Assembly (NCBI RefSeq): GCF_026151205.1
Contig: NC_087079.1
Span: 3,071,730-3,135,729, forward strand
DNA: 64,000 nt
Source of the DNA: Bolinopsis microptera
Lineage: Eukaryota; Ctenophora; Tentaculata; Lobata; Bolinopsidae
Reading direction: 5' to 3'
This document shows, one piece after another, positions 29,508 to 55,605 of this stretch. The notes below the pieces were generated by a model. It had not been told where the DNA came from. It made no database searches and worked only from the letters and a program-made list of their open reading frames with translations. A program made the position numbers and the translations under genes. The first letter of the stretch is position 1. Each line of letters opens with the position of its first letter.

Positions 29508-31561
29508 TCAAATTGACGTTTCACAGATAACCTCATCAGGGGTGCCCAACCGGAAATCCAAAGACTTATCCCCAGTTTTGAACACAGCTGTCCCAAACAT
29601 CAACTTAGGAAACATTTGCTGTCCCGGTAGTTTAATCAACACGGTGCTCAACCCACAGCGCACATCCGCTACAAAATACTCCTGGGTTGCTACTGGCGTT
29701 ATTGGTGGTAGAGCTTCATTTTGAGGAAGAAGAGTATACCCTCTTTTACACCTCAAATGGTGGTGCTTGTAGTCGCTGATATCCAGACACAAACTCACTA
29801 AACATTTCGGGCGATTGTTAACGCTCGCCCGCCGACCTGCCCGTTGCTGCCACAGATAAATCAGGGAGTTGATGGCATTAGTCATGAAGTAATAGAAGAC
29901 AAGCATGAGGATGAGACCGCTGGACAGGAGGTTAGCAGTGAGGTAGTAGTTGTACTCAGTGTTGGAGACATACCACTGGATCTTGAGGTGACCTCCCGTC
30001 ATCTTGGTCTCTATGATCAGGTAAATCCCGGTGTTGGGTCCGTGTTTCATGGGCGAGTATTTGATTAGCCGTCGTTCACAGTTCATTTCCGTTTGAAGAT
30101 AGTTGTACTGGGTATCTATCTCTTCTACTCCTGTGTTATGGAAATTTAGGAAATTATGATAATCTGCTCCGTTGCAATATTACAAAATGTATTGAAAAGT
30201 GAAAACCGCAAGAGCAAAAGAGACGGAAAGAAATTATATTCACGAAAAATGAGACAGGTGAAAAATAACAAGAGTTAGTTTTAAATAGTAATTTTAATGT
30301 AGTTAGTTACCAGCTATCCAAGGTTTCATGGGTTTTATATCCCAGCGATGTGTCGTGTATCGAGCACTTCTTTTGCTGTTGTGTACCTGCAATATCGAGA
30401 TACTTTAAATCAAATAACAAATTCTTTGAATTTGATGGCATATTGATGTGAGTATCACAGCTTCATTATTTAGTTAAATTCTCTTACTCATCATTGATTC
30501 AAAGATTACCTCGTAGAATGACTCATGATGAACTCCATGGCTCCTCGTTTTCTCGTCTAAATAAATCCTATATTCCCTAGGGTTCATACTAGCGTACACA
30601 GTTCCCACCAGGTCCCTCATCTCAATGTAGACCCAGTGGTCCGACGAGCCTTGCAAGGGTATGTGAAAAGGTCTTGCAAAGTATTCTCGCCCTGTAAAGT
30701 TATACACCTTGTCTCTATCTAGGGTCTGAAAGCAGGAAGACCCGTTTCTAGGGTCTCCTGAGTAACCGTACTGACATATGTCACACTGGTACAAGAAACA
30801 GTTCTGAGCGTCTACACACTTTCCACCCTCAGATTGGTAACTGCTCCGGGTGTGGTTCTGACAGTCACAGTCCAGGCCCGTCTCCGGGTTACACTTCCAA
30901 GTGTGCTTGTTGCACGTGCACTCGCGACACTCTCCCGATACGGGATCCCGGAAATAGTCCGGTGATTTACATTTCTGACAATAGTCGCCGACTGTGTTGT
31001 TCTGACAGTCCTCACATTTGGCGCGCTCGAACAACAAGTATTTGAATGATTGGGTGGCAGTTGTTGCGGGGACCCTGTTATCGACACACGTGTTAGAGTG
31101 GCCATAACACAGCTCTTTGCAGGATATACAGTACTTTCCCTTGAGGATAAACCCATCCAAGCAGTGTTCACATCTCGACCCTGTGGTGTTACCCTCACAC
31201 TTCAAACATGAGCCGTCTTCAGCGCACTCGCTGTGTCCCATACAATCACACTTTAGGGAACAGTCTGCCCCATGGTACCCATACTCACACACACACATGC
31301 CCACGTCAACACAGTCTCCGTGATCACATCCAGTGTCCGCGCAGGATGGGATACACGCGTCTACCTCGTCAGAGTTAACAGTGCCGTTACTGCACGTGCA
31401 GTTGTAACCATCCTCCATATCCACACACAGCTGGTCTAGTCTGCACGTGTGAACATCCAGCGCGCATTCGTCCTCCAGTGGACAGGTGAAGTAGTGCCAG
31501 TTAGCGCACGTGCTGTCGCGCGGGTTGCTCACATCTCCACTCTGACACTCTCCTTCTTCAC
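29508..31561 (-). CDS. MEGF8: MEGF8 exons 31-33: EGF, laminin-EGF, membrane segment, tail
   Basis: Exons 30510-31561, 30311-30386, 29508-30130. The first has a calcium-binding type EGF (DECALDVHTCRLDQLCVDME), an EGF with CDHGDCVDVGMCVCEYGYHG, laminin-type EGFs (CDCMGHSECAEDGSCLKCEG; ECTCNKHTWKCNPETG) and the start of a beta-rich domain (EYFARPFHIPLQGSSDHWVY). The last exon has the membrane helix (SSGLILMLVFYYFMTNAINS) and a tail of about 95 residues. In the tail NNRPKCLVSLCL lines up with the MASRPFA-type motif that recruits MGRN1 in vertebrate MEGF8 and attractin, keeping Arg-Pro but not the flanks. LSTVLIKLPG near the end also matches the family C-terminus. Confidence 0.88.
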
Positions 31562-34500
31562 CTGGGTATTTAAAAAAGAAGTTAATTATAGTCGTCGAAA
31601 TCGCTCAAAAATGCTTGACTAGAACGAACTATACTGAGAATTAAAAGAAAACTGTGAGTGAAATTCGAAAGTAAAATCGAAACTTTGAGTGAAAGTGAAA
31701 CTGTAAGTAAAAGTGAAACAGAAAGTCACATACCATTGGCACACCAGCCACATTGGTTGTGTTCTTTGCAGACTGAGCAGGTCTTGTGTAACGAGCATGG
31801 TTCCGGGCATTGTACCGGATGTACCAACAGATCACATCTACAGACGACAATATGACGTTACTTTTCAGTTGTACTACTATTTTAAATGAGTTTATCAAGA
31901 TTACTAGCAGTTATGCAGATATTACGATAATTTGCATATCTACAGCTTTATTAAATAGCAATAAATTTGATTAAATGAATGGTGTAGTCCTACGAACAGC
32001 TGTGCATACCGATTAAAGAGGCAGAACCAGTCCTGCAGTTCAGCTGACAGACATGTTTCTAAAGCTGAGCTCCAGCTACAATCATCTTTCACTGTACATC
32101 TGGTCAGAATGTTTGGTTATCAGTCTACCAAGTCGATAGAAAAAAATATAACACTTTTATCGGTCGACGTTACACAATTGATACCTTAAATCGGAGGTAA
32201 TAAAATAAATCGTAGATTTAGATAACCCATTTGATTATAAATTTAATTGGTTATTTATAAAGTACCTGGTGCAATCATCGATACCACCACAAACCACTGG
32301 ACAAGACCTCTTTCCATCACTTCTCACAACATTACTTGTGTGTGTGCACGTGTCTTTGTGCCAAGCACATTGAGCGTTTCCATGACACTCCGTGCACGTG
32401 CTCCAGTCTTTACAAGCACCATTGCACGTGGTGCGCAGCGACTTGTTACTGCTGCACGTCTTGGCAGATGTCCAGTAGCATGAGTTGGAGGCGCATGAGT
32501 AACAGTCTGTGTGGTGGATACAGGGCAATGTGGTGTCCAATGTGTTGTATTTACATCTGGTATAAACAGAGTGGTTGGTGAGGGATGTGGTTGAGAAAAG
32601 AGCGGGTAGTAAATACAGTGTTTCGTTTCGAACATATTAATATTATCATGAATTCGAATATAATTATTAAATTAATATTTAAATATACTTTCTGATTCAA
32701 TAAGGACAGGCCCAAACCTAAGTTAAAGCAATGTTACACTCACCCTAGAATTGGGGTAGGAATGCAAGGTTTAGGACTATATAAAGGTTTATCACACCAG
32801 GCACACCCGAACCTACTACATTCTTCCTCCTCTGAGGTAGAAATAACGGTGAGTTTAAATAAAATCATTCATAACTTTACACTTACACCAGAGATACGAT
32901 ACTTCTATTGCATTGGTTACTTAATCATTTGTTATCATAATAATAATACAGTAATACCGCTCATGTTCATAAGAATAATCAAACAGTCGACTGCTAACTA
33001 TTTAAACGTTAGCAACACAATTAATTAATTAAGTGTCAATTATTAAATTACTAAATTAATTAATTGCCCTTAATTAACCTCTGATAAAGTAGCAGATACT
33101 ATCCCTTAAATCATACGATAGTACCAGGCTGTGAACACTTCCATTAAACCCTCCCATCAGATACAGCTTGTTGTTCAGGAATAGTAGGTTAGATGAGATC
33201 ATGGCTGTTTCAGGGTCACGTGTTATTTGGATGTAGCTGCCTGTGTCTAGTTGCAGTGCGAACAGACCCTGTCAGGATTTTATATGTAGAATAAAAGCGG
33301 ATCTTGGACAAAAAAATTCATATAAGAAATTACAATTGTTTTATGGCAATCAAGCAAGCAGACTTGACGTGAAAAAGCGAACTGCAGAGATTATTTTCCA
33401 ATCAAATTGTCACTGACACTAAAATAACATTAAAATAACATCTGCCAATACAATCCTTTCGTATCACTTATATGTTTTAAATATCCCCCCTCCAGATTAA
33501 CAATCTGATACGTCATATCAAGTCAACTTACCCCATTGAGATGGTGAACTCCCCGACTTCTTCCCCCCACCAGATACACCAGCCCCACATCCTGAGTAGA
33601 ACTGTGGAAACTAGATACTATCTCCTCCGGCAGATCTGCTGGGACTGATACCCAGGTGTGGGCGGTAACACTGTACTTGTAGTACCCCGGGGACCCTATC
33701 ACGTGGAGACGGTCTTTGTGGAGGATCATGCTGTGCCCGTACATACGGGGCACTAGACCTACAGAGAGGGCATGTTTAGAGTTACATACGGGGCACTAGA
33801 CCTACAGAGAGGGCATGTTTAGAGTTACATACGGGGCACTAGACCTACAGAGAGGGCATGTTTAGGGTTATTATATACGGGGCACTAGACCTACAGAGAG
33901 GGCATGTTTAGGGTTATTATATACGGGGCACTAGACCTACAGAGAGGGCATGTTTAGGGTTATTATATACGGGGCACTAGACCTACAGAGAGGGCATGTT
34001 TAGGGTTATTATATACGGGGCACTAGACCTACAGAGAGGGCATGTTTAGGGTTACATACGGGTAACGGGGCACTAGACCTACAGAGAGGGCATGTTTAGG
34101 GTTACATACGGGGCACTAGACCTACAGAGAGGGTATGTTTAGGGTTATATTATATTGTAATGATTATTTACGTAGCTGATTTTATCATGAGTTTATGAGA
34201 TGAAAATATTGTTGTTTGAGGTTCAGTTTTAGCAAAACACAAACGATTCCTTAACATGCACTATTCATAATAATATAATGTATCATGCAGGTTAAATAAA
34301 AATGGTATTAAATGTTAACTAATCTTGGAGGAAATCTAAACGTTGTCTGTACCTGAAGTTGGGACGAGACTCCACAGTTTCTTCGTCACACTAAACTTGT
34401 ACAATAAGTTTGAGGCTCCTGACTCAGTTACACCGCCAAACAGGTACCATGTTTCTTCAGAGTATCGAACTGCACTGCTACCAGCTGGAGTGAGGGATGT

Positions 34501-37500
34501 TTAACACAAGGAAATATCTTATAATAAAGGATCAAGCTTGCGCTCTGTGCTTTCAAAGTTTAATTTACCTAAATTTAGCTATTACTATAATATCTAAATT
34601 CTGTATAATGTGACATTGTGACATTACCCATGGGAGGTAGGCCAGATGAGTGCAAGTTAGTCCAAACAATGTCATCTCCTCCTAAACTTGTACACCAAAC
34701 TTCACTACTGAGTCCCTCTTTCGTTACCCCACCTAAGATGACACAATAAAATCTAGCAACTAGAATGGTATTCATTGGGTTTTATACTATCGACAAGACG
34801 TTTCAAAGTTAATTGATGACCAAACTATTTTGACCAAACTCTCGCTCCCTCTTAAATCTATATCAAAACTGGTGTTCAAGTTAAGTGTAACTATAGTTAC
34901 CCACCAATGACACACATGGAGTTATCCTCTACAATAACACTGTGTAGATATCTAGCAGCAGGATATCCTTCACCCCCAGAAGCACCAGTAGAAGCACCAG
35001 TAGAAGCACCAGAGGTATGAGGAGCAGTAACTAGCTGTGTCCAGGTTAAAGAGTCTGTATCGAACTGCCAGATATCAGAGTACATTGTGTAGAGATCGTA
35101 CCCTCCGTAAACAGTCAAGTTGTTACCTGGGGTTAGAGGTCTCCTTTACTTGTTTGCGAGTTAAGTTGCTAAGTTGCTCAAAGCTTTAAGACTTTTACTT
35201 TGAATTTTATCAGATAAGTGGATACATTTTATTTTCTAGATAGAAATATTTGCAGACGAGAGATCAAAATCTATGAAGAGAACATTGCAGTATCTCACGA
35301 AGCTCTTACCCCCAATAACGACAGCGGAATGCCCCATCCTGGGTCCCATTATCACGTGACCGGGTGGCACCCAATCAAAACTCTTGACTGACCACGTAAT
35401 CTGGGCTGAACTCCTGTCACTGCACGAGATGCCGGAGCTGGACTCGTCACATCTACACACCCCCGTACTCTCTACACATGAACCCTGCAGGGGAGATCAT
35501 ACTTTGTTAACAATTTTAAAATGGTTAACAATCTTAATTTAGATAACAATGTTAACATGGTTAAAAGTGTTATTATGGTTAAAAATATTAACAGAGAATA
35601 CAGTTACTAACACATTTTGAGCCTCATGAAATCTAACATATTAACACGATTAAGATATCTTAAAATCCAAACAAGATATCAATTTACCCGGTTGTTACAG
35701 TTATCGGGGCAGACTGGCGTGTAACACTGGGGACCCATGTGCCCTGACACACAGGTGCAGTCCATTCCGTACCCACATGTAGCGTTAAACCTGCACCGAG
35801 AGAGCTAACGTTATTTACTGGTTATTTAGTTTGTTGTAGTTGAAGGTAGGAAGAGAAGATCGTGAAATACATTCATTTTCAAAAATTCATTAAACTATAT
35901 CGATTTGATGGGTAAAAGAGTTTGACGGTTTTGATGTCGAAATTTGTGGAAATAACATAAATATTAATTGTCAATGAGAACACATTTAGAACCATGTAGG
36001 GATGTAGTAATATCTACTTGAAACTAAACTGATCCCACAAACCCTACAATCCGATGAGCCCTAACCTGGCATCTTTACCACTGCAGTTGTGAGTACAGTT
36101 CCTCAGCTCATACGAGATGTTAAACTTGGTGCTCTGCATGCCCTCAAACAGCACAGTCACAGCACCGCGCGCACTGAACTCCCTCATCACGTGGTCACGT
36201 GTCTCACGCGTGAAGTGGTCACGTGACGAGGAGATGTCCGCGGAGAGGAGGAGGAGGAGACGTGAGGTGAGGTTGGAGGAGAGGGCCCCGGAGATGTGTG
36301 CTGGGAGCCCTTCCCAGATGTACAGGACTCCTGGAGGGGGACTTTAGTAAGGTGTCACTCAGCCAGGTTGTAATGTAGTAATATCAGGCAACTGGTAACT
36401 TAAATATGGTTATATTATTATTCTTTACGATATAAGTACCCTGAAACTATTACAAAAACATAATTGTTCCTCCTAAACCACCAATTTCCCAACACTAAGC
36501 AGCAACTAACCCGGTGTATCAGGAGCGTTAGACTTGAAGTCGTTAACAGACACCACCACACTAACACTCTCTAACGGAGGAGTAATGTACCACATAACAC
36601 TCTCGTACCCACTCAGCGAGTACCTGTGCCGCCTCTCTGACTGGACATTCCCCACCGCGCCATCTGCCACGCTGGCTAGCTGGACGCGGGAGCGCGCCAC
36701 CATGTAACACTGACCTCCGTCCACGGCGCTGCCGTAGTACCCCTGGCCACAAAGCTCACAGTTAAAGCCCGTGGTGTGGCCGGTACAGTGACACTGCCCC
36801 GTGTTTCTGTCACAGTACCCACGTGCCGGGTCATGGTGTCCGTTACACTGACATGGGTTACAGACGCTGCGCGTGCCCGGACCTGTACGGTAGGCACCAG
36901 CCGTACACAGCTGACAAGTTGCTCCTTCAGTCATGTGTTTGCAGTCGTCACAAATTCCTTGTCCCTGAAGTGGAACATAGATCAGCTGTTCTGATTATTA
37001 TAATCGATCGCGAATTATGTGATAAGTATCCATATTTAACAACTTGTAAATTAATATAATATAATCACCACAATACAATTAAAAACAATATTCAACCTGA
37101 GAGCAGGTAGAGTGAAGGTTACACTAAAACAATATTCAACCTGAGAGCAGGTAGAGTGAAGGTTACACTAAAACAATATTAAACCTGAGAGCAGGTAGAG
37201 TGAAGGTTACACTAAAACAATATTCAACCTGAGAGCAGGTAGAGTGAAGGTTACACTACAACAATATTCAACCTGAGAGCAGGTAGAGTGAAGGTTACAC
37301 TAAAACAATATTCAACCTGAGAGCAGGTAGAGTGAAGGTTACACTAAAACAATATTAAACCTGAGAGCAGGTAGAGTGAAGGTTACACTACAACAATATT
37401 AAACCTGAGAGCAGGTTGAGTGAAGGTTACACTAAAACAATATTAAACCTGAGAGCAGGTTGAGTGAAGGTTACACTAAAACAACATTAAACCTGAGAGA

Positions 37501-40500
37501 AGGTAGAGTGAAGGTTACACTAAAACAATATTAAACCTGAGAGCAGGTAGAGTGAAGGTTACACTACAACAATATTCAACCTGAGAGCAGGTAGAGTGAA
37601 GGTTACACTAAAACAATATTAAACCTGAGAGCAGGTAGAGTGAAGGTTACACTACAACAATATTAAACCTGAGAGCAGGTAGAGTGAAGGTTACACTAAA
37701 ACAATATTCAACCTGAGAGCAGGTAGAGTGAAGGTTACACTAAAACAATATTAAACCTGAGAGCAGGTAGAGTGAAGGTTACACTAAAACAATATTAAAC
37801 CTGAGAGCAGGTAGAGTGAAGGTTACACTAAAACAACATTAAACCTGAGAGCAGGTAGAGTGAAGGTTACACTAAAACAATATTAAACCTGAGAGCAGGT
37901 AGAGTGAAGGTTACACTAAAACAATATTAAACCTGAGAGCAGGTAGAGTGAAGGTTACACTACAACAATATTAAACCTGAGAGCAGGTAGAGTGAAGGTT
38001 ACACTAAAACAATATTCAACCTGAGAGCAGGTAGAGTGAAGGTTACACTAAAACAATATTAAACCTGAGAGCAGGTAGAGTGAAGGTTACACTAAAACAA
38101 TATTAAACCTGAGAGCAGGTAGAGTGAAGGTTACACTAAAACAACATTAAACCTGAGAGCAGGTAGAGTGAAGGTTACACTAAAACAATATTAAACCTGA
38201 GAGCAGGTAGAGTGAAGGTTACACTAAAACAATATTAAACCTGAGAGCAGGTAGAGTGAAGGTTACACTAAAACAACATTAAACCTGAGAGCAGGTAGAG
38301 TGAAGGTTACACTAAAACAATATTCAACCTGAGAGCAGGTAGAGTGAAGGTTACACTAAAACAATATTAAACCTGAGAGCAGGTAGAGTGAAGGTTACAC
38401 TAAAACAATATTAAACCTGAGAGCAGGTAGAGTGAAGGTTACACTAAAACAATATTAAACCTGAGAGCAGGTAGAGTGAAGGTTACACTAAAACAATATT
38501 CAACCTGAGAGCAGGTAGAGTGAAGGTTACACTAAAACAATATTAAACCTGAGAGCAGGTAGAGTGAAGGTTACACTAAAACAATATTAAACCTGAGAGC
38601 AGGTAGAGTGAAGGTTACACTAAAACAATATTAAACCTGAGAGCAGGTAGAGTGAAGGTTACACTAAAACAATATTAAACCTGAGAGCAGGTAGAGTGAA
38701 GGTTACACTAAAACAATATTAAACCTGAGAGCAGGTAGAGTGAAGGTTACACTAAAACAATATTAAACCTGAGAGCAGGTAGAGTGAAGGTTACACTAAA
38801 ACAACATTAAACCTGAGAGCAGGTAGAGTGAAGGTTACACTAAAACAATATTAAACCTGAGAGCAGGTAGAGTGAAGGTTACACTAAAACAATATTAAAC
38901 CTGAGAGCAGGTAGAGTGAAGGTTACACTAAAACAATATTAAACCTGAGAGCAGGTAGAGTGAAGGTTACACTAAAACAATATTAAACCTGAGAGCAGGT
39001 AGAGTGAAGGTTACACTACAACAATATTCAACCTGAGAGCAGGTAGAGTGAAGGTTACACTAAAACAATATTCAACCTGAGAGCAGGTAGAGTGAAGGTT
39101 ACACTACAACAATGTTCAACCTGAGAGCAGGTAGAGTGAAGGTTACACTACAACAATATTAAACCTGAGAGCAGGTAGAGTGAAGGTTACACTAAAACAA
39201 TATTAAACCTGAGAGCAGGTAGAGTGAAGGTTACACTAAAACAATATTAAACCTGAGAGCAGGTAGAGTGAAGGTTACACTAAAACAATATTCAACCTGA
39301 GAGCAGGTAGAGTGAAGGTTACACTAAAACAATATTAAACCTGAGAGCAGGTAGAGTGAAGGTTACACTAAAACAATATTAAACCTGAGAGCAGGTAGAG
39401 TGAAGGTTACACTAAAACAATATTAAACCTGAGAGCAGGTAGAGTGAAGGTTACACTAAAACAATATTAAACCTGAGAGCAGGTAGAGTGAAGGTTACAC
39501 TAAAACAATATTCAACCTGAGAGCAGGTAGAGTGAAGGTTACACTAAAACAATATTCAACCTGAGAGCAGGTAGAGTGAAGGTTACACTAAAACAATATT
39601 CAACCTGAGAGCAGGTAGAGTGAAGGTTACACTAAAACAATATTAAACCTGAGAGCAGGTAGAGTGAAGGTTACACTAAAACAATATTAAACCTGAGAGC
39701 AGGTAGAGTGAAGGTTACACTAAAACAATATTCAACCTGAGAGCAGGTAGAGTGAAGGTTACACTAAAACAATATTCAACCTGAGAGCAGGTAGAGTGAA
39801 GGTTACACTAAAACAATATTCAACCTGAGAGCAGGTAGAGTGAAGGTTACACTAAAACAATATTCAACCTGAGAGCAGGTAGAGTGAAGGTTACACTAAA
39901 ACAATATTCAACCTGAGAGCAGGTAGAGTGAAGGTTACACTAAAACAATATTAAACCTGAGAGCAGGTAGAGTGAAGGTTACACTAAAACAATATTAAAC
40001 CTGAGAGCAGGTAGAGTGAAGGTTACACTAAAACAATATTCAACCTGAGAGCAGGTAGAGTGAAGGTTACACTAAAACAATATTCAACCTGAGAGCAGGT
40101 AGAGTGAAGGTTACACTAAAACAATATTAAACCTGAGAGCAGGTAGAGTGAAGGTTACACTAAAACAATATTCAACCTGAGAGCAGGTAGAGTGAAGGTT
40201 ACACTAAAACAACATTAAACCTGAGAGCAGGTAGAGTGAAGGTTACACTAAAACAATATTAAACCTGAGAGCAGGTAGAGTGAAGGTTACACTAAAACAA
40301 TATTCAACCTGAGAGCAGGTAGAGTGAAGGTTACACTAAAACAATATTAAACCTGAGAGCAGGTAGAGTGAAGGTTACACTAAAACAATATTAAACCTGA
40401 GAGCAGGTAGAGTGAAGGTTACACTAAAACAATATTAAACCTGAGAGCAGGTAGAGTGAAGGTTACACTAAAACAATATTAAACCTGAGAGCAGGTAGAG

Positions 40501-43500
40501 TGAAGGTTACACTAAAACAATATTAAACCTGAGAGCAGGTAGAGTGAAGGTTACACTAAAACAATATTAAACCTGAGAGCAGGTAGAGTGAAGGTTACAC
40601 TAAAACAATATTAAACCTGAGAGCAGGTAGAGTGAAGGTTACACTAAAACAATATTAAACCTGAGAGCAGGTAGAGTGAAGGTTACACTAAAACAATATT
40701 AAACCTGAGAGCAGGTAGAGTGAAGGTTACACTAAAACAATATTAAACCTGAGAGCAGGTAGAGTGAAGGTTACACTAAACAATATTAAACCTGAGAGCA
40801 GGTAGAGTGAAGGTTACACTAAAACAATATTAAACCTGAGAGCAGGTAGAGTGAAGGTTACACTAAAACAATATTAAACCTGAGAGCAGGTAGAGTGAAG
40901 GTTACACTAAAACAATATTAAACCTGAGAGCAGGTAGAGTGAAGGTTACACTAAAACAATATTCAACCTGAGAGCAGGTAGAGTGAAGGTTACACTAAAA
41001 CAATATTCAACCTGAGAGCAGGTAGAGTGAAGGTTACACTAAAACAATATTAAACCTGAGAGCAGGTAGAGTGAAGGTTACACTAAAACAATATTAAACC
41101 TGAGAGCAGGTAGAGTGAAGGTTACACTAAAACAATATTCAACCTGAGAGCAGGTAGAGTGAAGGTTACACTAAAACAATATTAAACCTGAGAGCAGGTA
41201 GAGTGAAGGTTACACTAAAACAATATTCAACCTGAGAGCAGGTAGAGTGAAGGTTACACTAAAACAATATTAAACCTGAGAGCAGGTAGAGTGAAGGTTA
41301 CACTAAAACAATATTAAACCTGAGAGCAGGTAGAGTGAAGGTTACACTAAAACAATATTAAACCTGAGAGCAGGTAGAGTGAAGGTTACACTAAAACAAT
41401 ATTAAACCTGAGAGCAGGTAGAGTGAAGGTTACACTACAACAATATTAAACCTGAGAGCAGGTAGAGTGAAGGTTACACTAAAACAATATTCAACCTGAG
41501 AGCAGGTAGAGTGAAGGTTACACTACAACAATATTCAACCTGAGAGCAGGTAGAGTGAAGGTTACACTAAAACAATATTCAACCTGAGAGCAGGTAGAGT
41601 GAAGGTTACACTAAAACAATATTAAACCTGAGAGCAGGTAGAGTGAAGGTTACACTACAACAATATTAAACCTGAGAGCAGGTAGAGTGAAGGTTACACT
41701 AAAACAATATTAAACCTGAGAGCAGGTAGAGTGAAGGTTACACTAAAACAATATTAAACCTGAGAGCAGGTAGAGTGAAGGTTACACTAAAACAATATTC
41801 AACCTGAGAGCAGGTAGAGTGAAGGTTACACTAAAACAATATTCTACCTGAGAGCAGGTAGAGTGAAGGTTACACTAAAACAATATTAAACCTGAGAGCA
41901 GGTAGAGTGAAGGTTACACTACAACAATATTCAACCTGAGAGCAGGTTGAGTGAAGGTTACACTAAAACAATATTCAACCTGAGAGCAGGTAGAGTGAAG
42001 GTTACACTAAAACAATATTAAACCTGAGAGCAGGTAGAGTGAAGGTTACACTACAACAACATTAAACCTGAGAGCAGGTAGAGTGAAGGTTACACTAAAA
42101 CAATATTCTACCTGAGAGCAGGTAGAGTGAAGGTTACACTAAAACAATATTCTACCTGAGAGCAGGTAGAGTGAAGGTTACACTACAACAATATTAAACC
42201 TGAGAGCAGGTAGAGTGAAGGTTACACTAAAACAATATTCTACCTGAGAGCAGGTAGAGTGAAGGTTACACTACAACAATATTCAACCTGAGAGCAGGTA
42301 GAGTGAAGGTTACACTAAAACAATATTAAACCTGAGAGCAGGTAGAGTGAAGGTTACACTAAAACAATATTCAACCTGAGAGCAGGTAGAGTGAAGGTTA
42401 CACTACAACAATATTAAACCTGAGAGCAGGTAGAGTGAAGGTTACACTAAAACAATATTCAACCTGAGAGCAGGTAGAGTGAAGGTTACACTACAACAAT
42501 ATTAAACCTGAGAGCAGGTAGAGTGAAGGTTACACTAAAACAATATTCAACCTGAGAGCAGGTAGAGTGAAGGTTACACTAAAACAATATTAAACCTGAG
42601 AGCAGGTAGAGTGAAGGTTACACTAAAACAATATTAAACCTGAGAGCAGGTAGAGTGAAGGTTACACTAAAACAATATTAAACCTGAGAGCAGGTAGAGT
42701 GAAGGTTACACTAAAACAATATTAAACCTGAGAGCAGGTAGAGTGAAGGTTACACTAAAACAATATTAAACCTGAGAGCAGGTAGAGTGAAGGTTACACT
42801 AAAACAATATTAAACCTGAGAGCAGGTAGAGTGAAGGTTACACTAAAACAATATTAAACCTGAGAGCAGGTAGAGTGAAGGTTACACTAAAACAATATTA
42901 AACCTGAGAGCAGGTAGAGTGAAGGTTACACTAAAACAATATTAAACCTGAGAGCAGGTAGAGTGAAGGTTACACTAAAACAATATTAAACCTGAGAGCA
43001 GGTAGAGTGAAGGTTACACTAAAACAATATTCAACCTGAGAGCAGGTAGAGTGAAGGTTACACTAAAACAATATTAAACCTGAGAGCAGGTAGAGTGAAG
43101 GTTACACTAAAACAATATTAAACCTGAGAGCAGGTAGAGTGAAGGTTACACTAAAACAATATTAAACCTGAGAGCAGGTAGAGTGAAGGTTACACTAAAA
43201 CAATATTAAACCTGAGAGCAGGTAGAGTGAAGGTTACACTAAAACAATATTAAACCTGAGAGCAGGTAGAGTGAAGGTTACACTAAAACAATATTCAACC
43301 TGAGAGCAGGTAGAGTGAAGGTTACACTACAACAATATTCAACCTGAGAGCAGGTAGAGTGAAGGTTACACTAAAACAATATTCAACCTGAGAGCAGGTA
43401 GAGTGAAGGTTACACTAAAACAATATTCAACCTGAGAGCAGGTAGAGTGAAGGTTACACTAAAACAATATTCAACCTGAGAGCAGGTAGAGTGAAGGTTA

Positions 43501-46500
43501 CACTACAACAATATTAAACCTGAGAGCAGGTAGAGTGAAGGTTACACTAAAACAATATTCAACCTGAGAGCAGGTAGAGTGAAGGTTACACTAAAACAAT
43601 ATTAAACCTGAGAGCAGGTAGAGTGAAGGTTACACTAAAACAATATTCAACCTGAGAGCAGGTAGAGTGAAGGTTACACTAAAACAATATTAAACCTGAG
43701 AGCAGGTAGAGTGAAGGTTACACTAAAACAATATTCAACCTGAGAGCAGGTAGAGTGAAGGTTACACTAAAACAATATTCAACCTGAGAGCAGGTAGAGT
43801 GAAGGTTACACTAAAACAATATTCAACCTGAGAGCAGGTAGAGTGAAGGTTACACTAAAACAATATTCAACCTGAGAGCAGGTAGAGTGAAGGTTACACT
43901 AAAACAATATTCAACCTGAGAGCAGGTAGAGTGAAGGTTACACTAAAACAATATTCAACCTGAGAGCAGGTAGAGTGAAGGTTACACTAAAACAATATTA
44001 AACCTGAGAGCAGGTAGAGTGAAGGTTACACTACAACAATATTCAACCTGAGAGCAGGTAGAGTGAAGGTTACACTAAAACAATATTCAACCTGAGAGCA
44101 GGTAGAGTGAAGGTTACACTAAAACAATATTAAACCTGAGAGCAGGTAGAGTGAAGGTTACACTAAAACAATATTAAACCTGAGAGCAGGTAGAGTGAAG
44201 GTTACACTAAAACAATATTAAACCTGAGAGCAGGTAGAGTGAAGGTTACACTAAAACAATATTCAACCTGAGAGCAGGTAGAGTGAAGGTTACACTAAAA
44301 CAATATTAAACCTGAGAGCAGGTAGAGTGAAGGTTACACTAAAACAATATTAAACCTGAGAGCAGGTAGAGTGAAGGTTACACTAAAACAATATTAAACC
44401 TGAGAGCAGGTAGAGTGAAGGTTACACTAAAACAATATTCAACCTGAGAGCAGGTAGAGTGAAGGTTACACTAAAACAATATTCAACCTGAGAGCAGGTA
44501 GAGTGAAGGTTACACTAAAACAATATTCAACCTGAGAGCAGGTAGAGTGAAGGTTACACTAAAACAATATTCAACCTGAGAGCAGGTAGAGTGAAGGTTA
44601 CACTAAAACAATATTCAACCTGAGAGCAGGTAGAGTGAAGGTTACACTAAAACAATATTCAACCTGAGAGCAGGTAGAGTGAAGGTTACACTAAAACAAT
44701 ATTCAACCTGAGAGCAGGTAGAGTGAAGGTTACACTAAAACAATATTAAACCTGAGAGCAGGTAGAGTGAAGGTTACACTAAAACAATATTAAACCTGAG
44801 AGCAGGTAGAGTGAAGGTTACACTAAAACAATATTCAACCTGAGAGCAGGTAGAGTGAAGGTTACACTAAAACAATATTAAACCTGAGAGCAGGTAGAGT
44901 GAAGGTTACACTAAAACAATATTAAACCTGAGAGCAGGTAGAGTGAAGGTTACACTAAAACAATATTCAACCTGAGAGCAGGTAGAGTGAAGGTTACACT
45001 AAAACAATATTCAACCTGAGAGCAGGTAGAGTGAAGGTTACACTAAAACAATATTCAACCTGAGAGCAGGTAGAGTGAAGGTTACACTAAAACAATATTC
45101 AACCTGAGAGCAGGTAGAGTGAAGGTTACACTAAAACAATATTCAACCTGAGAGCAGGTAGAGTGAAGGTTACACTAAAACAATATTCAACCTGAGAGCA
45201 GGTAGAGTGAAGGTTACACTAAAACAATATTCAACCTGAGAGCAGGTAGAGTGAAGGTTACACTAAAACAATATTCAACCTGAGAGCAGGTAGAGTGAAG
45301 GTTACACTAAAACAATATTCAACCTGAGAGCAGGTAGAGTGAAGGTTACACTAAAACAATATTCAACCTGAGAGCAGGTAGAGTGAAGGTTACACTAAAA
45401 CAATATTCAACCTGAGAGCAGGTAGAGTGAAGGTTACACTAAAACAATATTCAACCTGAGAGCAGGTAGAGTGAAGGTTACACTAAAACAATATTAAACC
45501 TGAGAGCAGGTAGAGTGAAGGTTACACTAAAACAATATTAAACCTGAGAGCAGGTAGAGTGAAGGTTACACTAAAACAATATTAAACCTGAGAGCAGGTA
45601 GAGTGAAGGTTACACTAAAACAATATTAAACCTGAGAGCAGGTAGAGTGAAGGTTACACTAAAACAATATTAAACCTGAGAGCAGGTAGAGTGAAGGTTA
45701 CACTAAAACAATATTAAACCTGAGAGCAGGTAGAGTGAAGGTTACACTAAAACAATATTAAACCTGAGAGCAGGTAGAGTGAAGGTTACACTAAAACAAT
45801 ATTAAACCTGAGAGCAGGTAGAGTGAAGGTTACACTAAAACAATATTAAACCTGAGAGCAGGTAGAGTGAAGGTTACACTAAAACAATATTAAACCTGAG
45901 AGCAGGTAGAGTGAAGGTTACACTAAAACAATATTAAACCTGAGAGCAGGTAGAGTGAAGGTTACACTAAAACAATATTAAACCTGAGAGCAGGTAGAGT
46001 GAAGGTTACACTAAAACAATATTAAACCTGAGAGCAGGTAGAGTGAAGGTTACACTAAAACAATATTAAACCTGAGAGCAGGTAGAGTGAAGGTTACACT
46101 AAAACAATATTCAACCTGAGAGCAGGTAGAGTGAAGGTTACACTAAAACAATATTCAACCTGAGAGCAGGTAGAGTGAAGGTTACACTAAAACAATATTA
46201 AACCTGAGAGCAGGTAGAGTGAAGGTTACACTAAAACAATATTAAACCTGAGAGCAGGTAGAGTGAAGGTTACACTAAAACAATATTAAACCTGAGAGCA
46301 GGTAGAGTGAAGGTTACACTAAAACAATATTCAACCTGAGAGCAGGTAGAGTGAAGGTTACACTAAAACAATATTAAACCTGAGAGCAGGTAGAGTGAAG
46401 GTTACACTAAAACAATATTAAACCTGAGAGCAGGTAGAGTGAAGGTTACACTAAAACAATATTAAACCTGAGAGCAGGTAGAGTGAAGGTTACACTAAAA

Positions 46501-49500
46501 CAATATTAAACCTGAGAGCAGGTAGAGTGAAGGTTACACTAAAACAATATTCAACCTGAGAGCAGGTAGAGTGAAGGTTACACTAAAACAATATTAAACC
46601 TGAGAGCAGGTAGAGTGAAGGTTACACTAAAACAATATTAAACCTGAGAGCAGGTAGAGTGAAGGTTACACTAAAACAATATTCAACCTGAGAGCAGGTA
46701 GAGTGAAGGTTACACTAAAACAATATTAAACCTGAGAGCAGGTAGAGTGAAGGTTACACTAAAACAATATTAAACCTGAGAGCAGGTAGAGTGAAGGTTA
46801 CACTAAAACAATATTCAACCTGAGAGCAGGTAGAGTGAAGGTTACACTAAAACAATATTCAACCTGAGAGCAGGTAGAGTGAAGGTTACACTAAAACAAT
46901 ATTAAACCTGAGAGCAGGTAGAGTGAAGGTTACACTAAAACAATATTAAACCTGAGAGCAGGTAGAGTGAAGGTTACACTAAAACAATATTCAACCTGAG
47001 AGCAGGTAGAGTGAAGGTTACACTAAAACAATATTCAACCTGAGAGCAGGTAGAGTGAAGGTTACACTAAAACAATATTAAACCTGAGAGCAGGTAGAGT
47101 GAAGGTTACACTAAAACAATATTAAACCTGAGAGCAGGTAGAGTGAAGGTTACACTAAAACAATATTAAACCTGAGAGCAGGTAGAGTGAAGGTTACACT
47201 AAAACAATATTCAACCTGAGAGCAGGTAGAGTGAAGGTTACACTAAAACAATATTCAACCTGAGAGCAGGTAGAGTGAAGGTTACACTAAAACAATATTA
47301 AACCTGAGAGCAGGTAGAGTGAAGGTTACACTAAAACAATATTAAACCTGAGAGCAGGTAGAGTGAAGGTTACACTAAAACAATATTCAACCTGAGAGCA
47401 GGTAGAGTGAAGGTTACACTAAAACAATATTAAACCTGAGAGCAGGTAGAGTGAAGGTTACACTAAAACAATATTCAACCTGAGAGCAGGTAGAGTGAAG
47501 GTTACACTAAAACAATATTAAACCTGAGAGCAGGTAGAGTGAAGGTTACACTAAAACAATATTCAACCTGAGAGCAGGTAGAGTGAAGGTTACACTAAAA
47601 CAATATTAAACCTGAGAGCAGGTAGAGTGAAGGTTACACTAAAACAATATTAAACCTGAGAGCAGGTAGAGTGAAGGTTACACTAAAACAATATTAAACC
47701 TGAGAGCAGGTAGAGTGAAGGTTACACTAAAACAATATTCAACCTGAGAGCAGGTAGAGTGAAGGTTACACTAAAACAATATTAAACCTGAGAGCAGGTA
47801 GAGTGAAGGTTACACTAAAACAATATTAAACCTGAGAGCAGGTAGAGTGAAGGTTACACTAAAACAATATTAAACCTGAGAGCAGGTAGAGTGAAGGTTA
47901 CACTAAAACAATATTCAACCTGAGAGCAGGTAGAGTGAAGGTTACACTAAAACAATATTCAACCTGAGAGCAGGTAGAGTGAAGGTTACACTAAAACAAT
48001 ATTAAACCTGAGAGCAGGTAGAGTGAAGGTTACACTAAAACAATATTAAACCTGAGAGCAGGTAGAGTGAAGGTTACACTAAAACAATATTCAACCTGAG
48101 AGCAGGTAGAGTGAAGGTTACACTAAAACAATATTAAACCTGAGAGCAGGTAGAGTGAAGGTTACACTAAAACAATATTAAACCTGAGAGCAGGTAGAGT
48201 GAAGGTTACACTAAAACAATATTAAACCTGAGAGCAGGTAGAGTGAAGGTTACACTAAAACAATATTCAACCTGAGAGCAGGTAGAGTGAAGGTTACACT
48301 AAAACAATATTAAACCTGAGAGCAGGTAGAGTGAAGGTTACACTAAAACAATATTAAACCTGAGAGCAGGTAGAGTGAAGGTTACACTAAAACAATATTA
48401 AACCTGAGAGCAGGTAGAGTGAAGGTTACACTAAAACAATATTAAACCTGAGAGCAGGTAGAGTGAAGGTTACACTAAAACAATATTAAACCTGAGAGCA
48501 GGTAGAGTGAAGGTTACACTAAAACAATATTAAACCTGAGAGCAGGTAGAGTGAAGGTTACACTAAAACAATATTAAACCTGAGAGCAGGTAGAGTGAAG
48601 GTTACACTAAAACAATATTCAACCTGAGAGCAGGTAGAGTGAAGGTTACACTAAAACAATATTCAACCTGAGAGCAGGTAGAGTGAAGGTTACACTAAAA
48701 CAATATTCAACCTGAGAGCAGGTAGAGTGAAGGTTACACTAAAACAATATTAAACCTGAGAGCAGGTAGAGTGAAGGTTACACTAAAACAATATTAAACC
48801 TGAGAGCAGGTAGAGTGAAGGTTACACTACAACAATATTAAACCTGAGAGCAGGTAGAGTGAAGGTTACACTAAAACAATATTAAACCTGAGAGCAGGTA
48901 GAGTGAAGGTTACACTAAAACAATATTAAACCTGAGAGCAGGTAGAGTGAAGGTTACACTACAACAATATTAAACCTGAGAGCAGGTAGAGTGAAGGTTA
49001 CACTAAAACAATATTAAACCTGAGAGCAGGTAGAGTGAAGGTTACACTAAAACAACATTAAACCTGAGAGCAGGTAGAGTGAAGGTTACACTAAAACAAT
49101 ATTAAACCTGAGAGCAGGTAGAGTGAAGGTTACACTAAAACAATATTAAACCTGAGAGCAGGTAGAGTGAAGGTTACACTAAAACAATATTAAACCTGAG
49201 AGCAGGTAGAGTGAAGGTTACACTACAACAATATTAAACCTGAGAGCAGGTAGAGTGAAGGTTACACTAAAACAATATTAAACCTGAGAGCAGGTAGAGT
49301 GAAGGTTACACTAAAACAATATTAAACCTGAGAGCAGGTAGAGTGAAGGTTACACTAAAACAATATTAAACCTGAGAGCAGGTAGAGTGAAGGTTACACT
49401 AAAACAATATTAAACCTGAGAGCAGGTAGAGTGAAGGTTACACTACAACAATATTAAACCTGAGAGCAGGTAGAGTGAAGGTTACACTAAAACAATATTA

Positions 49501-52500
49501 AACCTGAGAGCAGGTAGAGTGAAGGTTACACTAAAACAATATTAAACCTGAGAGCAGGTAGAGTGAAGGTTACACTAAAACAATATTAAACCTGAGAGCA
49601 GGTAGAGTGAAGGTTACACTACAACAATATTCAACCTGAGAGCAGGTAGAGTGAAGGTTACACTACAACAATATTAAACCTGAGAGCAGGTAGAGTGAAG
49701 GTTACACTACAACAATATTAAACCTGAGAGCAGGTAGAGTGAAGGTTACACTAAAACAATATTAAACCTGAGAGCAGGTAGAGTGAAGGTTACACTACAA
49801 CAATATTAAACCTGAGAGCAGGTAGAGTGAAGGTTACACTACAACAATATTAAACCTGAGAGCAGGTAGAGTGAAGGTTACACTAAAACAATATTAAACC
49901 TGAGAGCAGGTAGAGTGAAGGTTACACTACAACAATATTAAACCTGAGAGCAGGTAGAGTGAAGGTTACATTAAAACAATATTAAACCTGAGAGCAGGTA
50001 GAGTGAAGGTTACACTAAAACAATATTCAACCTGAGAGCAGGTAGAGTGAAGGTTACACTACAACAATATTAAACCTGAGAGCAGGTAGAGTGAAGGTTA
50101 CACTAAAACAATATTAAACCTGAGAACAGGTAGAGTGAAGGTTACACTACAACAATATTAAACCTGAGAGCAGGTAGAGTGAAGGTTACACTAAAACAAT
50201 ATTAAACCTGAGAGCAGGTAGAGTGAAGGTTACACTACAACAATATTAAACCTGAGAGCAGGTAGAGTGAAGGTTACACTAAAACAATATTCAACCTGAG
50301 AGCAGGTAGAGTGAAGGTTACACTAAAACAATATTCAACCTGAGAGCAGGTAGAGTGAAGGTTACACTAAAACAATATTAAACCTGAGAACAGGTAGAGT
50401 GAAGGTTACACAAGCAGTCCTGGTCACAGTTAGGCCCAGTGTAACCTAGATCACACTCACACAGGTTGTACTCGCTACACTTGCCGTGTTTGCAGGTGGA
50501 ACTCGTGTCACACCTGCGGTGGTAACAGTTTTATCGAGCCATGTATTTACAATTGAAATAGGGTCATTATATCGGGCATTGTTTTTAGAAGTGTCACTGA
50601 TAATAACTTGGGTATTTTACCCCTTTTACAAATTAATATTTGCTTGATTTTCGCTGAACTTGACAAACAGTGTTTAGTTGTACCACAAGTCACTAAAAAT
50701 CTCAAACTAACTAACTTCAACCGACAATCTCCTCCCAACTCACTTGGACTCACAGACCCCATCGTGGTCCTGATAACCCAGTTTACACTGACAAGTAAAC
50801 CCGTCCTCTGTATCTATACACTCGGCGTTGTCATGGCAGTGGTGGAGTCCCAGGGCACACTCGTTAACTGCTGGACACTCCTGGTAGTACCAGCTCAGCG
50901 AGCAGTAACCCTCCTCAAAGTTACCCTGACAGAGCATGTTAGTGTGCTTCTAGATTCAAAGTTACCCTGACAGAGCATGTTAGTGTGCTTCTAGATTCAA
51001 AGTTACCCTGACAGAGCATGTTAGTGTGCTTCTAGATTCAAAGTTACCCTGACAGAGCATGTTAGTGTGCTTCTAGATTCAAAGTTACCCTGACAGAGCA
51101 TGTTAGTGTGCTTCTAGATTCAAAGTTACCCTGACAGAGCATGTTAGTGTGCTTCTAGATTCAAAGTTACCCTGACAGAGCATGTTAGTGTGCTTCTAGA
51201 TTCAAAGTTACCCTGACAGAGCATGTTAGTGTGCTTCTAGATTCAAAGTTACCCTGACAGAGCATGTTAGTGTGCTTCTAGATTCAAAGTTACCCTGACA
51301 GAGCATGTTAGTGTGCTTCTAGATTCAAAGTTACCCTGACAGAGCATGTTAGTGTGCTTCTAGATTCAAAGTTACCCCGACAGAGCATGTTAGTGTGCTT
51401 CTAGATTCAAAGTTACCCTGACAGAGCATGTTAGTGTGCTTCTAGATTCAAAGTTACCCTGACAGAGCATGTTAGTGTGCTTCTAGATTCAAAGTTACCC
51501 TGACAGAGCATGTTAGTGTGCTTCTAGATTCAAAGTTACCCTGACAGAGCATGTTAGTGTGCTTCTAGATTCAAAGTTACCCTGACAAATCATGTTAGTG
51601 TGCTTCTAGATTCAAAGTTACCCTGACAGAGCATGTTAGTGTGCTTCTAGATTCAAAGTTACCCTGACAGAGCATGTTAGTGTGCTTCTAGATTCAAAGT
51701 TACCCTGACAGAGCATGTTAGTGTGCTTCTAGATTCAAAGTTACCCTGACAGAGCATGTTAGTGTGCTTCTAGATTCAAAGTTACCCTGACAGAGCAGGT
51801 TAGTGTGCTTCTAGATTCAAAGTTACCCTGACAGAGCATGTTAGTGTGCTTCTAGATTCAAAGTTACCCTGACAGAGCATGTTAGTGTGCTTCTAGATTC
51901 AAAGTTACCCAGACAGAGCATGTTAGTGTGCTTCTAGATTCAAAGTTACCCTGACAGAGCATGTTAGTGTGCTTCTAGATTCAAAGTTACCCTGACAGAG
52001 CAGGTTAGTGTGCTTCTAGATTCAAAGTTACCCTGACAGAGCATGTTAGTGTGCTTCTAGATTCAAAGTTACCCTGACAGAGCATGTTAGTGTGCTTCTA
52101 GATTCAAAGTTACCCTGACAGAGCATGTTAGTGTGATTCTAGATTCAAAGTTACCCTGACACAGCATGTTAGTGTGCTTCTAGATTCAAAGTTACCCTGA
52201 CACAGCATGTTAGTGTGCTTCTAGATTCAAAGTTACCCTGACAGAGCATGTTAGTGTGCTTCTAGATTCAAAGTTACCCTGACAGAGCATGTTAGTGTGC
52301 TTCTAGATTCAAAGTTACCCTGACAGAGCATGTTAGTGTGCTTCTAGATTCAAAGTTACCCCGACAGAGCATGTTAGTGTGCTTCTAGATTCAAAGTTAC
52401 CCTGACAGAGCATGTTAGTGTGCTTCTAGATTCAAAGTTACCCTGACAGAGCATGTTAGTGTGCTTCTAGATTCAAAGTTACCCTGACAGAGCATGTTAG

Positions 52501-55500
52501 TGTGCTTCTAGATTCAAAGTTACCCTGACACAGCATGTTAGACGTTAGTGTGCTTCTAGATTCAAAGTTACCCTGACAGAGCATGCTAGTGTGCTTCTAG
52601 ATTCAAAGTTACCCTGACAGAGCATGTTAGTGTGCTTCTAGATTCCCTGACAGAGCATGTTAGTGTGCTTCTAGATTCAAAGTTACCCTGACAGAGCATG
52701 TTAGTGTGCTTCTAGATTCAAAGTTACCCTGACAGAGCATGTTAGTGTGCTTCTAGATTCAAAGTTACCCTGACAGAGCAGGTTAGTGTGCTTCTAGATT
52801 GTATCTTAGAGGTGGTAAATTTGGGTAGACAACACAGAATTGAAAGACGGATAAGCTTGTAAACATTCCTCCTGAACAAATACCTGGGTGAGGTTGAGAC
52901 TGCAGAGTGACTGCAGACCTACCTTAATACAAGTACCGGAGTGACGTGAGGTTGAGACTCCAGACCTACCTTAATACAAATACCTGGGTGAGGTTGAGAC
53001 TCCAGACCTACCTTAATACAAGTACCGGAGTGAGGTTGAGACTCCAGTCCGCACCACCCACACCCGCGCACACTCTGACACTCTCTGCACGTGCGGTACA
53101 TCTCGCACTCGTCACAGTGGGACGATCCACCCCTGAAACAAGTTCCGTGAGATTTAATATTAATTGATAAAATCCCTATTTTATTATACTAGATTCGTCT
53201 TTATTTCGTCTTTATTTCTGAAGCAGACTGATATGGTAGATAAGCTTCCAAAAATCCAAAACTAATAATAATTAATCAATACCCAAATATTAACATATTA
53301 TCTACATTAATTCACAAGATATTGTGTTAAAGCACACAAAAGGACTCAGACTCACGGGGTAACAAATCCGTTGTACCACACGGAGCACTCCCCAAACGGG
53401 TAGAGAGCCACCTGTACGTTTATGGAGAAACACCGTCCCAGCGCCTTGCACCAAACACAGTCGTCCAGCCTGGGGTCACGTGATTATTTAGAGTCACGTG
53501 ATTAGTAAGGGTCACGTGGTTTGTTAGGGTCGCGTGATTAGTTCAAATAATTTAGATATTTGGTGGGTAGAGATTTTATGACACAACTCTAATATACTAT
53601 TATATTGCCAGGCAAACCTTCCGGTTTTTAAAAAGATAGAGATTAATGTTGGTATTGAAACATAATTAAACTGCTATAATCACTGATTAGTACCGAAATA
53701 ACTTTATAACTAGGAATCACTAAGTTACTAAATGTGTCAGGAAAATGAACTGACTCAGTGCAGGAGTAGCAGGAAGACTGTCGAGAGCAGGTATCCGGGC
53801 AGCGGTATCTCGATCTGATCGCTTCCTCGTATCTCCCACGTCTGTGGCATCTGAAGTTAAGCCACTCACAGTTACCGTCCTGAGGGAGGGGTAGTGTCTT
53901 ATCTGGCAAAACTGTGGTTAATTAAAACTGTGGTTAACTAAAACTGTGGTTAACTAAAACTGTGGTGAATTAAAACTGCGAATAACTAAAACTGCAGTTA
54001 AATAAAACTGTGGTAAACTAAAACTATGGTTAACTAAAACTGTGGTTAACTAATTACTAAAACTGTGATTAACTAAAACTGTGGTTTAAAAACTGTGGTA
54101 AACTAAAACTGTGGTTAACTAAAACTGCAGTTAAATAAAACTGTGGCAAACTAAAACTTTGGTTAATTAAAACTGTGGTTAACTAAAACTGTGGTTAACT
54201 AAAACTGTGGTTAAATAAAACTGTGGTTAACTAAAACTGTGGTTAACTAAAACTGCAGTTAAATGAAACTGTGGTAAACTAAAACTGTGGTTAGTTAAAA
54301 CTGTGGTAAACTAAAACTCACTCCAGCACAAGCAGAACAAGTGATACGTTCGTCACACTTGGTACAGGAATCAAAGTCAGTTATCAGGTACCCTGCTCTG
54401 AACTTCTGATTGGTGGAGAAGGTGTGCACTGATCTTAGCTGGCATCTGGGAGGAAGGAGGGTGTTACATGCCACATACCAAAGCTTTCGACTAGTGGGTT
54501 TATAGTATATTATGTACGGATACTTCTAGTTAGAGTAACCAGGGCCAGGGTTTGAGAATTATACCGTATACGTCGAAGTGTCACTAACCGTGCTAAAGAA
54601 GAGTGATGACGTCACTAACCATGATATAGAAGAAAGATGACGTCACTAACCGTGATAAAGAAGAGTGATGACGTCACTAACCGTGATATAGAAGAGTGAT
54701 GACGTCACTAACCGTGATATAGAAGAAAGATGACGTCACTAACCGTGATAAAGAAATAAGAAGAGTGATGACGTCACTAACCGTGATATAGAAGAGTGAT
54801 GACGTCACTAACCGTGATATAGAAGAAAGATGACGTCACTAACCGTGATAAAGAAGAGTGATGACGTCACTAACCGTGATAAAGAAGAGTGATGACGTCA
54901 CTAACCGTGATATAGAAGAGTGATGACGTCACTAACCGTGATAAAGAAGAGTGATGACGTCACTAACCGTGATATAGAAGAGTGATGACGTCACTAACCG
55001 TGATATAGAAGAGTGATGACGTCACTAACCGTAATATAGAAGAGTGATGACGTCACTAACCGTGATATAGAAGAGTTCCAGCCACACAGTTGATCAGTAA
55101 GACACCCCAGACAGGTTCCAAAGTGAGTACAGGAACCGTTCCTGTAGGGCACTAACACGTCCTGATAATGTATACCGTTACTGTGAGATACCTTCAGTTT
55201 TACTGTCATTTAGAGATGGCCACTAGAATTGAACAATAAGAGAGTAAAATCACATCCAGTAAACGAGGTAACGGGGGAAAACAAAGGGTTATCTTGTTAT
55301 TCTGTCCATCACGCAATGACGTTATAAACCGACGGATAACGTCACGTGACCTCCTTATGACGTCACGTGACCTCCTAATGACGTCACATGACAGTGTACC
55401 TCGTTGAGTATCTCCTCGGAGTGGTAGTCAGATCCCCCACCGTCCCACATGATCGTCATGTTACTCCTCTGTTGCTGATCATTAATGTACTGACTTAACA

Positions 55501-55567
55501 CTGCTTTTATGTATACCTGGTGTGAAACAATATTACCATTGTAAGAAGGAGGGGGCGGGGCGGCGAA

Positions 55568-55605
<38 letters not shown>

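Follow-up and report, generated by a model that had tools for sequence, protein, structure and literature searches.

What is to be made of an intron that consists largely of copies of its own 5' splice junction? The question is raised by a MEGF8-like gene in a 64,000-nucleotide stretch of the ctenophore Bolinopsis microptera (RefSeq contig NC_087079.1, positions 3,071,730 to 3,135,729), here called the window, in whose numbering coordinates are given unless another locus is named. Intron 17 of this gene holds a tandem array of a 44-bp unit that straddles the 3' boundary of exon 17. The array is, in all likelihood, a splice-junction minisatellite, or mirage, that has grown neutrally and is tolerated by splicing; we regard this as the leading explanation and weigh it below against recursive splicing, micro-exons and an assembly artefact.

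Tandem Repeats Finder reported a period of 44, 303.0 copies and 98% matches. Splitting of the array on the minus strand, which is the strand of the gene, gave 303 units, 301 of them 44 bp and 2 of them 43 bp long, and the commonest unit sequence accounted for 161 of the 303. Each unit consists of the last 27 nucleotides (nt) of exon 17, the donor, and the first 17 nt of the intron. An earlier note, made from the letters alone, had described the unit in this way and put the number of repeats at about 300, and its assignment to the exon 17 donor holds, as does its remark that the 27-nt part is a whole number of codons (nine, in phase 0). This part is identical to the end of exon 17 save for one silent T/C difference: the exon copy reads TGT, whereas TGC is found in 299 of 301 units, the exon copy itself being among the 2 with T. 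The note had further placed a donor in every unit. CAG|GT is indeed intact in all 301 full-length units (the bar marks the junction), but the exon-proximal donor reads GTTTAATA and not GTTGAATA; at the differing position, T is present in 195 and G in 106 of the 301. At the far end of the array, 117 bp that do not belong to it precede the acceptor of exon 18.

Rarer unit variants appeared by eye to be more frequent at both ends of the array than in its middle, as in ordinary satellite turnover. A higher-order repeat, hinted at by a 308-bp spacing of the first matches, was rejected: unit-type identity was 0.39-0.51 at lags 1-30, where 0.41 is expected, and stayed at or below 0.6 at every lag up to 60. 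No structured RNA was matched in Rfam at gathering thresholds in 36000-53100, and the folding of six unit sequences was unremarkable (z from -2.06 to +0.93). An ACCTG...CAGGT hairpin across the donor is a weak lead only.

Exons 17 and 18 join in phase 0 as ...CLCNLHSTCSQ|GQGICDDC.... The joined exons of the gene are open for 388 residues, then change phase from exon 7 to exon 8, and are open again for 1,813 residues up to the stop codon. A Pfam search with 1,582 of these 1,813 residues found attractin/LZTR1 beta-propeller and kelch repeats, PSI, and laminin/attractin EGF domains. The earlier label of MEGF8 fits this content, being drawn from domains rather than from a tree. The reading frame shift lies at about 56474-56440 on the minus strand, near a run of five G, and may be an assembly error, a wrong junction or a real frameshift. 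The least certain junctions are those of introns 7 and 10, neither of which carries a junction-spanning array.

The array of intron 17 is one of several in this gene. When junctions were counted with 15-nt junction probes, allowing at most one mismatch, 5 of 64 had a junction-spanning array, 3 at donors and 2 at acceptors (Table 1). Both the donor end and the acceptor end of intron 15 are duplicated. The reading frame is open across all five array-bearing junctions. Half of the arrays with a unit of at least 20 bp in the gene (5 of 10, merged by eye) span a junction.

Table 1. Coordinates, in the window, of the host gene, its array-bearing intron 17 and its junction-spanning arrays
Feature	Coordinates	Strand	Description
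MEGF8/attractin-like gene	29508..61252	-	33 exons, 32 introns as modelled; 5' end not found
Exon 17	50384..50513	-	supplies the exon-derived part of the unit with its last 27 nt (50410-50384)
Intron 17	36965..50383	-	13,419 bp, about 13.3 kb of it array; last 117 bp (37081-36965) outside array
Exon 18	36511..36964	-	laminin EGF (PF00053, PF24973)
44-bp donor-type mirage, intron 17	37082..50411	-	303 copies; unit TGTAACCTTCACTCTACCTGCTCTCAG|GTTTAATATTGTTTTAG; Tandem Repeats Finder and unit splitting
41-bp acceptor-type mirage, intron 15	50915..52800	-	46 copies; 11 nt of exon 16 (GGTAACTTTGA) and acceptor CTGTCAG
42-bp donor-type mirage, intron 15	52909..53047	-	3.2 copies; 36 nt of exon 15 and donor AAG|GTAGGT
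31-bp donor-type mirage, intron 11	54580..55076	-	15.8 copies; 16 nt of exon 11 and donor CACG|GTTAGT
46-bp acceptor-type mirage, intron 24	33743..34148	-	8.9 copies; 16 nt of exon 25 and acceptor CTCTGTAG

Arrays are likely to hit junctions where introns are short. With ten arrays seeded at random in the gene (median intron 198 bp before expansion), and under the assumption that exon-spanning copies are fully tolerated, 2.1 were expected to span a junction, compared with the 5 seen (P = 0.033). Duplication that seeks out junctions was considered and set aside, since a mild excess of this kind does not require a strong junction-seeking mechanism.

Two further arrays of the gene lie wholly within introns. 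Almost all of intron 12 (53908-54318) is a 16-bp array of 25 copies, 4 bp from the donor, with TTTTAG in many units and no exon sequence. A 125-bp array of 5.4 copies, whose unit is made of two halves that resemble each other (about 55 and 70 bp), is found in the middle of intron 5 (57749-58421).

Junction-spanning arrays were also found at other loci, where counts were made by eye from printed flanks. The families sampled (laminin EGF, ABC, iGluR and myosin) had matches on contigs C1 to C13 of the assembly. The laminin EGF (PF00053) sample comprised 24 loci and 75 kb, some overlapping, with 20 arrays of unit at least 20 bp, merged by eye. Flanks were inspected for 17 of the 20, two of which are cut by the locus end (L042 1-72 and L049); beyond the 17, L038 1415-1464 is visible only within the flank of another array, and L041 and L050 were left out. 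Five arrays in this sample span a junction: L035 646-918, L035 2031-2948, L044 312-1438 (with an exon piece of just 8 nt), L040 137-433 and L038 1294-1408. In L044/L035, one intron has both ends duplicated, as does intron 15 of the MEGF8-like gene, and its flanking exons join as laminin EGF (...CDYDPLTG|GSLTCDCQEGYEG... and ...CDYDPLTG|GSLTCDCQEGYEGSNCGEC...). In the ABC and iGluR loci (28 loci, 98 kb, with many long open frames), 1 of the 11 arrays inspected, which are part of those present, spans a junction (L018 3102-3246). The total is thus eleven junction-spanning arrays of differing units, five in the MEGF8-like gene and six elsewhere.

Several other repeats in these loci and in the window resemble or adjoin splice junctions. 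A 23-bp array of 61 copies at L044 1725-3138, whose units carry a pyrimidine tract and CACTAG|GT, stops 9 bp short of a laminin-type exon's acceptor; it may be a degenerate acceptor-type mirage and is left out of the counts. On the minus strand of the window, 12564-13004 is a 22-bp array of 20 copies in another multi-exon gene, with acceptor-like TTTCATCATAG or TTTCATTATAG, and stops some 30 bp before the apparent true acceptor. At L040 about 1200-1450, an acceptor and exon start (CCCCCCCAG|AATGCCCGATAGCG) are by eye present twice, about 100 bp apart. A 48-bp unit in two copies lies just inside the donor of a myosin exon (L066 1033-1130), adjoining the junction with no exon sequence copied. 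The 72-bp repeat of 3.1 copies at L063 2836-3058 (minus strand) is by eye an in-frame, 24-residue coiled-coil-like repeat and not a splice-junction array. The iGluR matches form clusters at C12:11.78-11.81 Mb and C3:15.86-15.94 Mb, and three of those on C12 are in open frames of more than 900 residues and so apparently intronless. The best PDB match of the iGluR protein of L029 was ML032222a, a 256-residue ligand-binding domain of the ctenophore Mnemiopsis leidyi, which at 187 bits ranked ahead of full-length chains of kainate receptors (178.9 bits or less) and points to a ctenophore host. A second receptor, that of L026, matched full-length GluK2 best (254.8 bits, compared with 212.8 for the short chain of ML032222a), a result taken as neutral.

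The copy number of the array depends on the assembly, which comprises 232 contigs with 264,652,675 bases in all. The assembly contains 422 instances of an exact 30-mer of the unit, 296 of them in the window and 126 in contig C91. A dispersed satellite is ruled out, as these two places hold all 422. Contig C91 (28,401 bases) appears to contain nothing but two runs of poly-A, of about 2.2 and 3.7 kb, and the 44-bp unit, well preserved in some stretches and badly garbled in others, as judged by Tandem Repeats Finder on its first 10 kb and by composition and 10-mer counts over the whole contig. It probably consists of low-quality reads, from this array or another allele, that were left over, and it carries about 22 kb of additional array-like sequence that is not assignable to an allele. 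Because array sequence was left over in this way, 303 is the copy number of the assembly and not a measured allele. COX1, which the same search detected in 8 of 14 control genomes, had no match in the assembly; the mitochondrial genome is thus probably absent from it. A connexin search directed at a tunicate origin matched nothing, and its control was without a match as well.

The array might be much shorter in the animal and have been inflated or smoothed by the assembler. Contig C91, apparently array and poly-A junk, is a sign of badly handled reads here, and the published Bolinopsis assembly, if it is this one, was built with wtdbg from PacBio reads (PMC10232365; this and the other papers are cited here from excerpts). 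However, the about 22 kb of array-like sequence on this separate contig point to more array rather than less, and the eleven junction-spanning arrays have different units, several of them short enough for single reads. We therefore consider an artefact very improbable.

How the gene might deal with so many junctions was judged from weight matrices trained on the other 31 introns of the gene, a small training set whose output is a score and not an assay. Each later donor adds 44 nt, which is not a multiple of three, and the second codon beyond the junction is then an in-frame stop (SQV*). Wrong choices would therefore presumably be lost to decay, and the variable EGF loops that the earlier note thought tolerable would not result from them. 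The note had also proposed that the 27-nt pieces could be spliced in as micro-exons, giving variable EGF loops without breaking the frame. The piece has phase 0 at both ends and nine codons, as this would demand. Nevertheless, its acceptor, TTTTAG|TG, which the note had called acceptor-like, scores lower than any of the other 31 acceptors of the gene, and 234 of the 303 ordinary intronic AGs equal or exceed it, which makes it an ordinary decoy. Moreover, just 17 nt of "intron" separate neighbouring units, so that units would need to be skipped. A micro-exon array is thus hardly to be expected.

The exon-derived end of the unit behaves differently in the same scoring. Read as an acceptor, CTCTCAG|GT scores 9.7, at least as high as 26 of the 31 other acceptors and a value reached by 2 of 303 ordinary intronic AGs, and the end of exon 17 ranks 2 of 32 among the donor junctions of the gene scored as acceptors. 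Since the exon end reads as a strong acceptor, each unit presents a juxtaposed AG|GT, and CTCTCAGGT is found 301 times in the exon end and intron. This allows the array to be read as a recursive-splicing satellite, in which a strong 3' and a weak 5' splice site (CACTCTACCTGCTCTCAG|GTTTAA) adjoin in every unit and the 13.4-kb intron would be taken out stepwise, in many short pieces. Each step would restore the same donor, so that growth of the array would be costless and may even be favoured amid 200-bp introns. In human, recursive sites are on record, among them dual AG|GT sites at the distal ends of exons (PMC10156609). The proposal rests on sequence scores, however, and the donor half of the unit, at 2.3, is weak. 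The other mirages, furthermore, are not conspicuous by this measure, ranking 14 to 20 of 32 (I11 donor 20, I15 donor 15, I15 acceptor 14, I24 acceptor 15). In the I15 acceptor unit, a donor-like GTAACT with a score of 8.1 lies one base further in. On balance we think recursive removal of the intron unlikely. It is equally doubtful, though conceivable from the predicted sites, that the satellite is invisible to its gene, the units of intron 17 being complete ratchets such that any splice from one copy to a later copy restores the same junction. Were this so, arrays could grow without limit and at no cost, the 13.4-kb intron could be removed in hundreds of possible recursive steps, and intron growth in this ctenophore, like the supply of material from which new introns and exons arise, would have a major source in such minisatellites.

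Neutral growth of a splice-junction minisatellite accounts for the array in fewer terms, and a dedicated function is not needed. A short tandem duplication across the 3' boundary of exon 17 would have been followed by expansion to about 300 copies via unequal exchange or slippage. With the exon-proximal donor in use the coding sequence would be unchanged and the inner copies would leave with the intron; a junction-spanning duplication would be nearly harmless because the messenger RNA (mRNA) stays the same. Data for amphioxus Adh3 and reverse-transcription polymerase chain reaction of globins likewise point to normal mRNA (PMC3087553). The same process would have operated at other junctions of the gene and genome, at donors and acceptors. 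Sequence variation among the copies was compared in six pooled arrays, with anchor columns left out; 4 units of I24 supplied 8 exon columns, and L044 supplied none. Variable positions were as frequent in exon-derived (10 of 88) as in intron-derived parts (18 of 151; Fisher p = 1.0), which fits neutral copies. The pooled arrays gave no signal of selection on the exon-derived part of the unit.

Several observations weigh against this explanation. The exon-proximal donor CAG|GTTTAA scores poorly (among the gene's 31 other donors, just 2 are as weak) and about 300 equals lie downstream of it; that it is the donor used is something we infer from the sequence. Taken singly, the arrays are less even than the pool: variable positions number 3 of 20 exon against 6 of 17 intron positions in the big array, 0 of 11 against 6 of 22 in I15A, and 6 of 16 against 0 of 7 in I11. 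The excess over random seeding, at P = 0.033, may hint at a junction-related cause. Finally, none of the 8 arrays of unit at least 20 bp in the myosin loci (14 loci, 46 kb, merged by eye) spans a junction, indicating that junction-spanning arrays are uneven across genes.

The locus also has a wider bearing. About 300 near-identical donors, or 46 near-identical acceptors, of which one gives the right mRNA, amount to natural competition experiments, in which the choice of the spliceosome among equal sites becomes directly testable. The arrays also show what may be a route of intron growth and of the seeding of new exons and introns.

Mirages were reportedly first described by Canestro et al. in 2002. 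In amphioxus they are tandem repeats across exon-intron boundaries, found in Adh3 (units of 10-72 bp), the globins BflGb6 and BflGb9, PGBD5 and other genes; BflGb6 has 6 and 3 units in two haplotypes, and mirage mRNA is apparently normal (PMC3087553, PMC3902484). The unit of intron 17, with 27 exon and 17 intron nt, spans an exon-intron boundary in the same way and has the structure that defines a mirage. The earlier statement that no case of this size had been described must accordingly be divided: the kind is known from these papers, whereas the size may lack precedent. In the literature that our searches reached, in which subscription papers were mostly uncovered and absence from print is thus unproven, mirages or the like were found only for amphioxus and none for ctenophores; with the same coverage, no paper was found on recursive splicing together with tandem repeats.

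Two models from other systems bear on the array. In the Rogers model, introns are gained by tandem genomic duplication at AGGT (discussed in PMC3087553; a potato case is given in PMC4974935). Similarly, the AG|GT-bearing tandem copies here could make exon sequence intronic or create exons. Intron 17 differs in having its own 117-bp 3' end outside the array, and so an existing intron probably grew. Recursive ratchet points and dual-specificity sites resemble the unit in that acceptor and donor are juxtaposed, including at distal exon ends; the published sites, as far as the excerpts extend (PMC10156609), are not in tandem arrays, whereas here about 300 near-identical candidate sites are found.

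The closest relatives of the array are therefore the amphioxus mirages. In the present genome, too, mirages lie at 5' as well as 3' ends of introns, and they are spread over several genes. The host is a ctenophore and not a cephalochordate, and the largest array has 303 copies, compared with the 6 and 3 units of the BflGb6 haplotypes, a size comparison limited to the globin cases in the excerpts. Two introns have both ends duplicated, and the units of the largest array carry a dual AG|GT. Ctenophores are held to be sister to other animals (PMC10232365). The presence of such arrays at many junctions in a ctenophore suggests that tandem duplication in short-intron genes produces them as a general outcome, and that they are not a lancelet oddity. 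The novelty lies in the host lineage, to the extent that the literature search covers it, and in the scale relative to the globin cases; the kind itself is that known from amphioxus.

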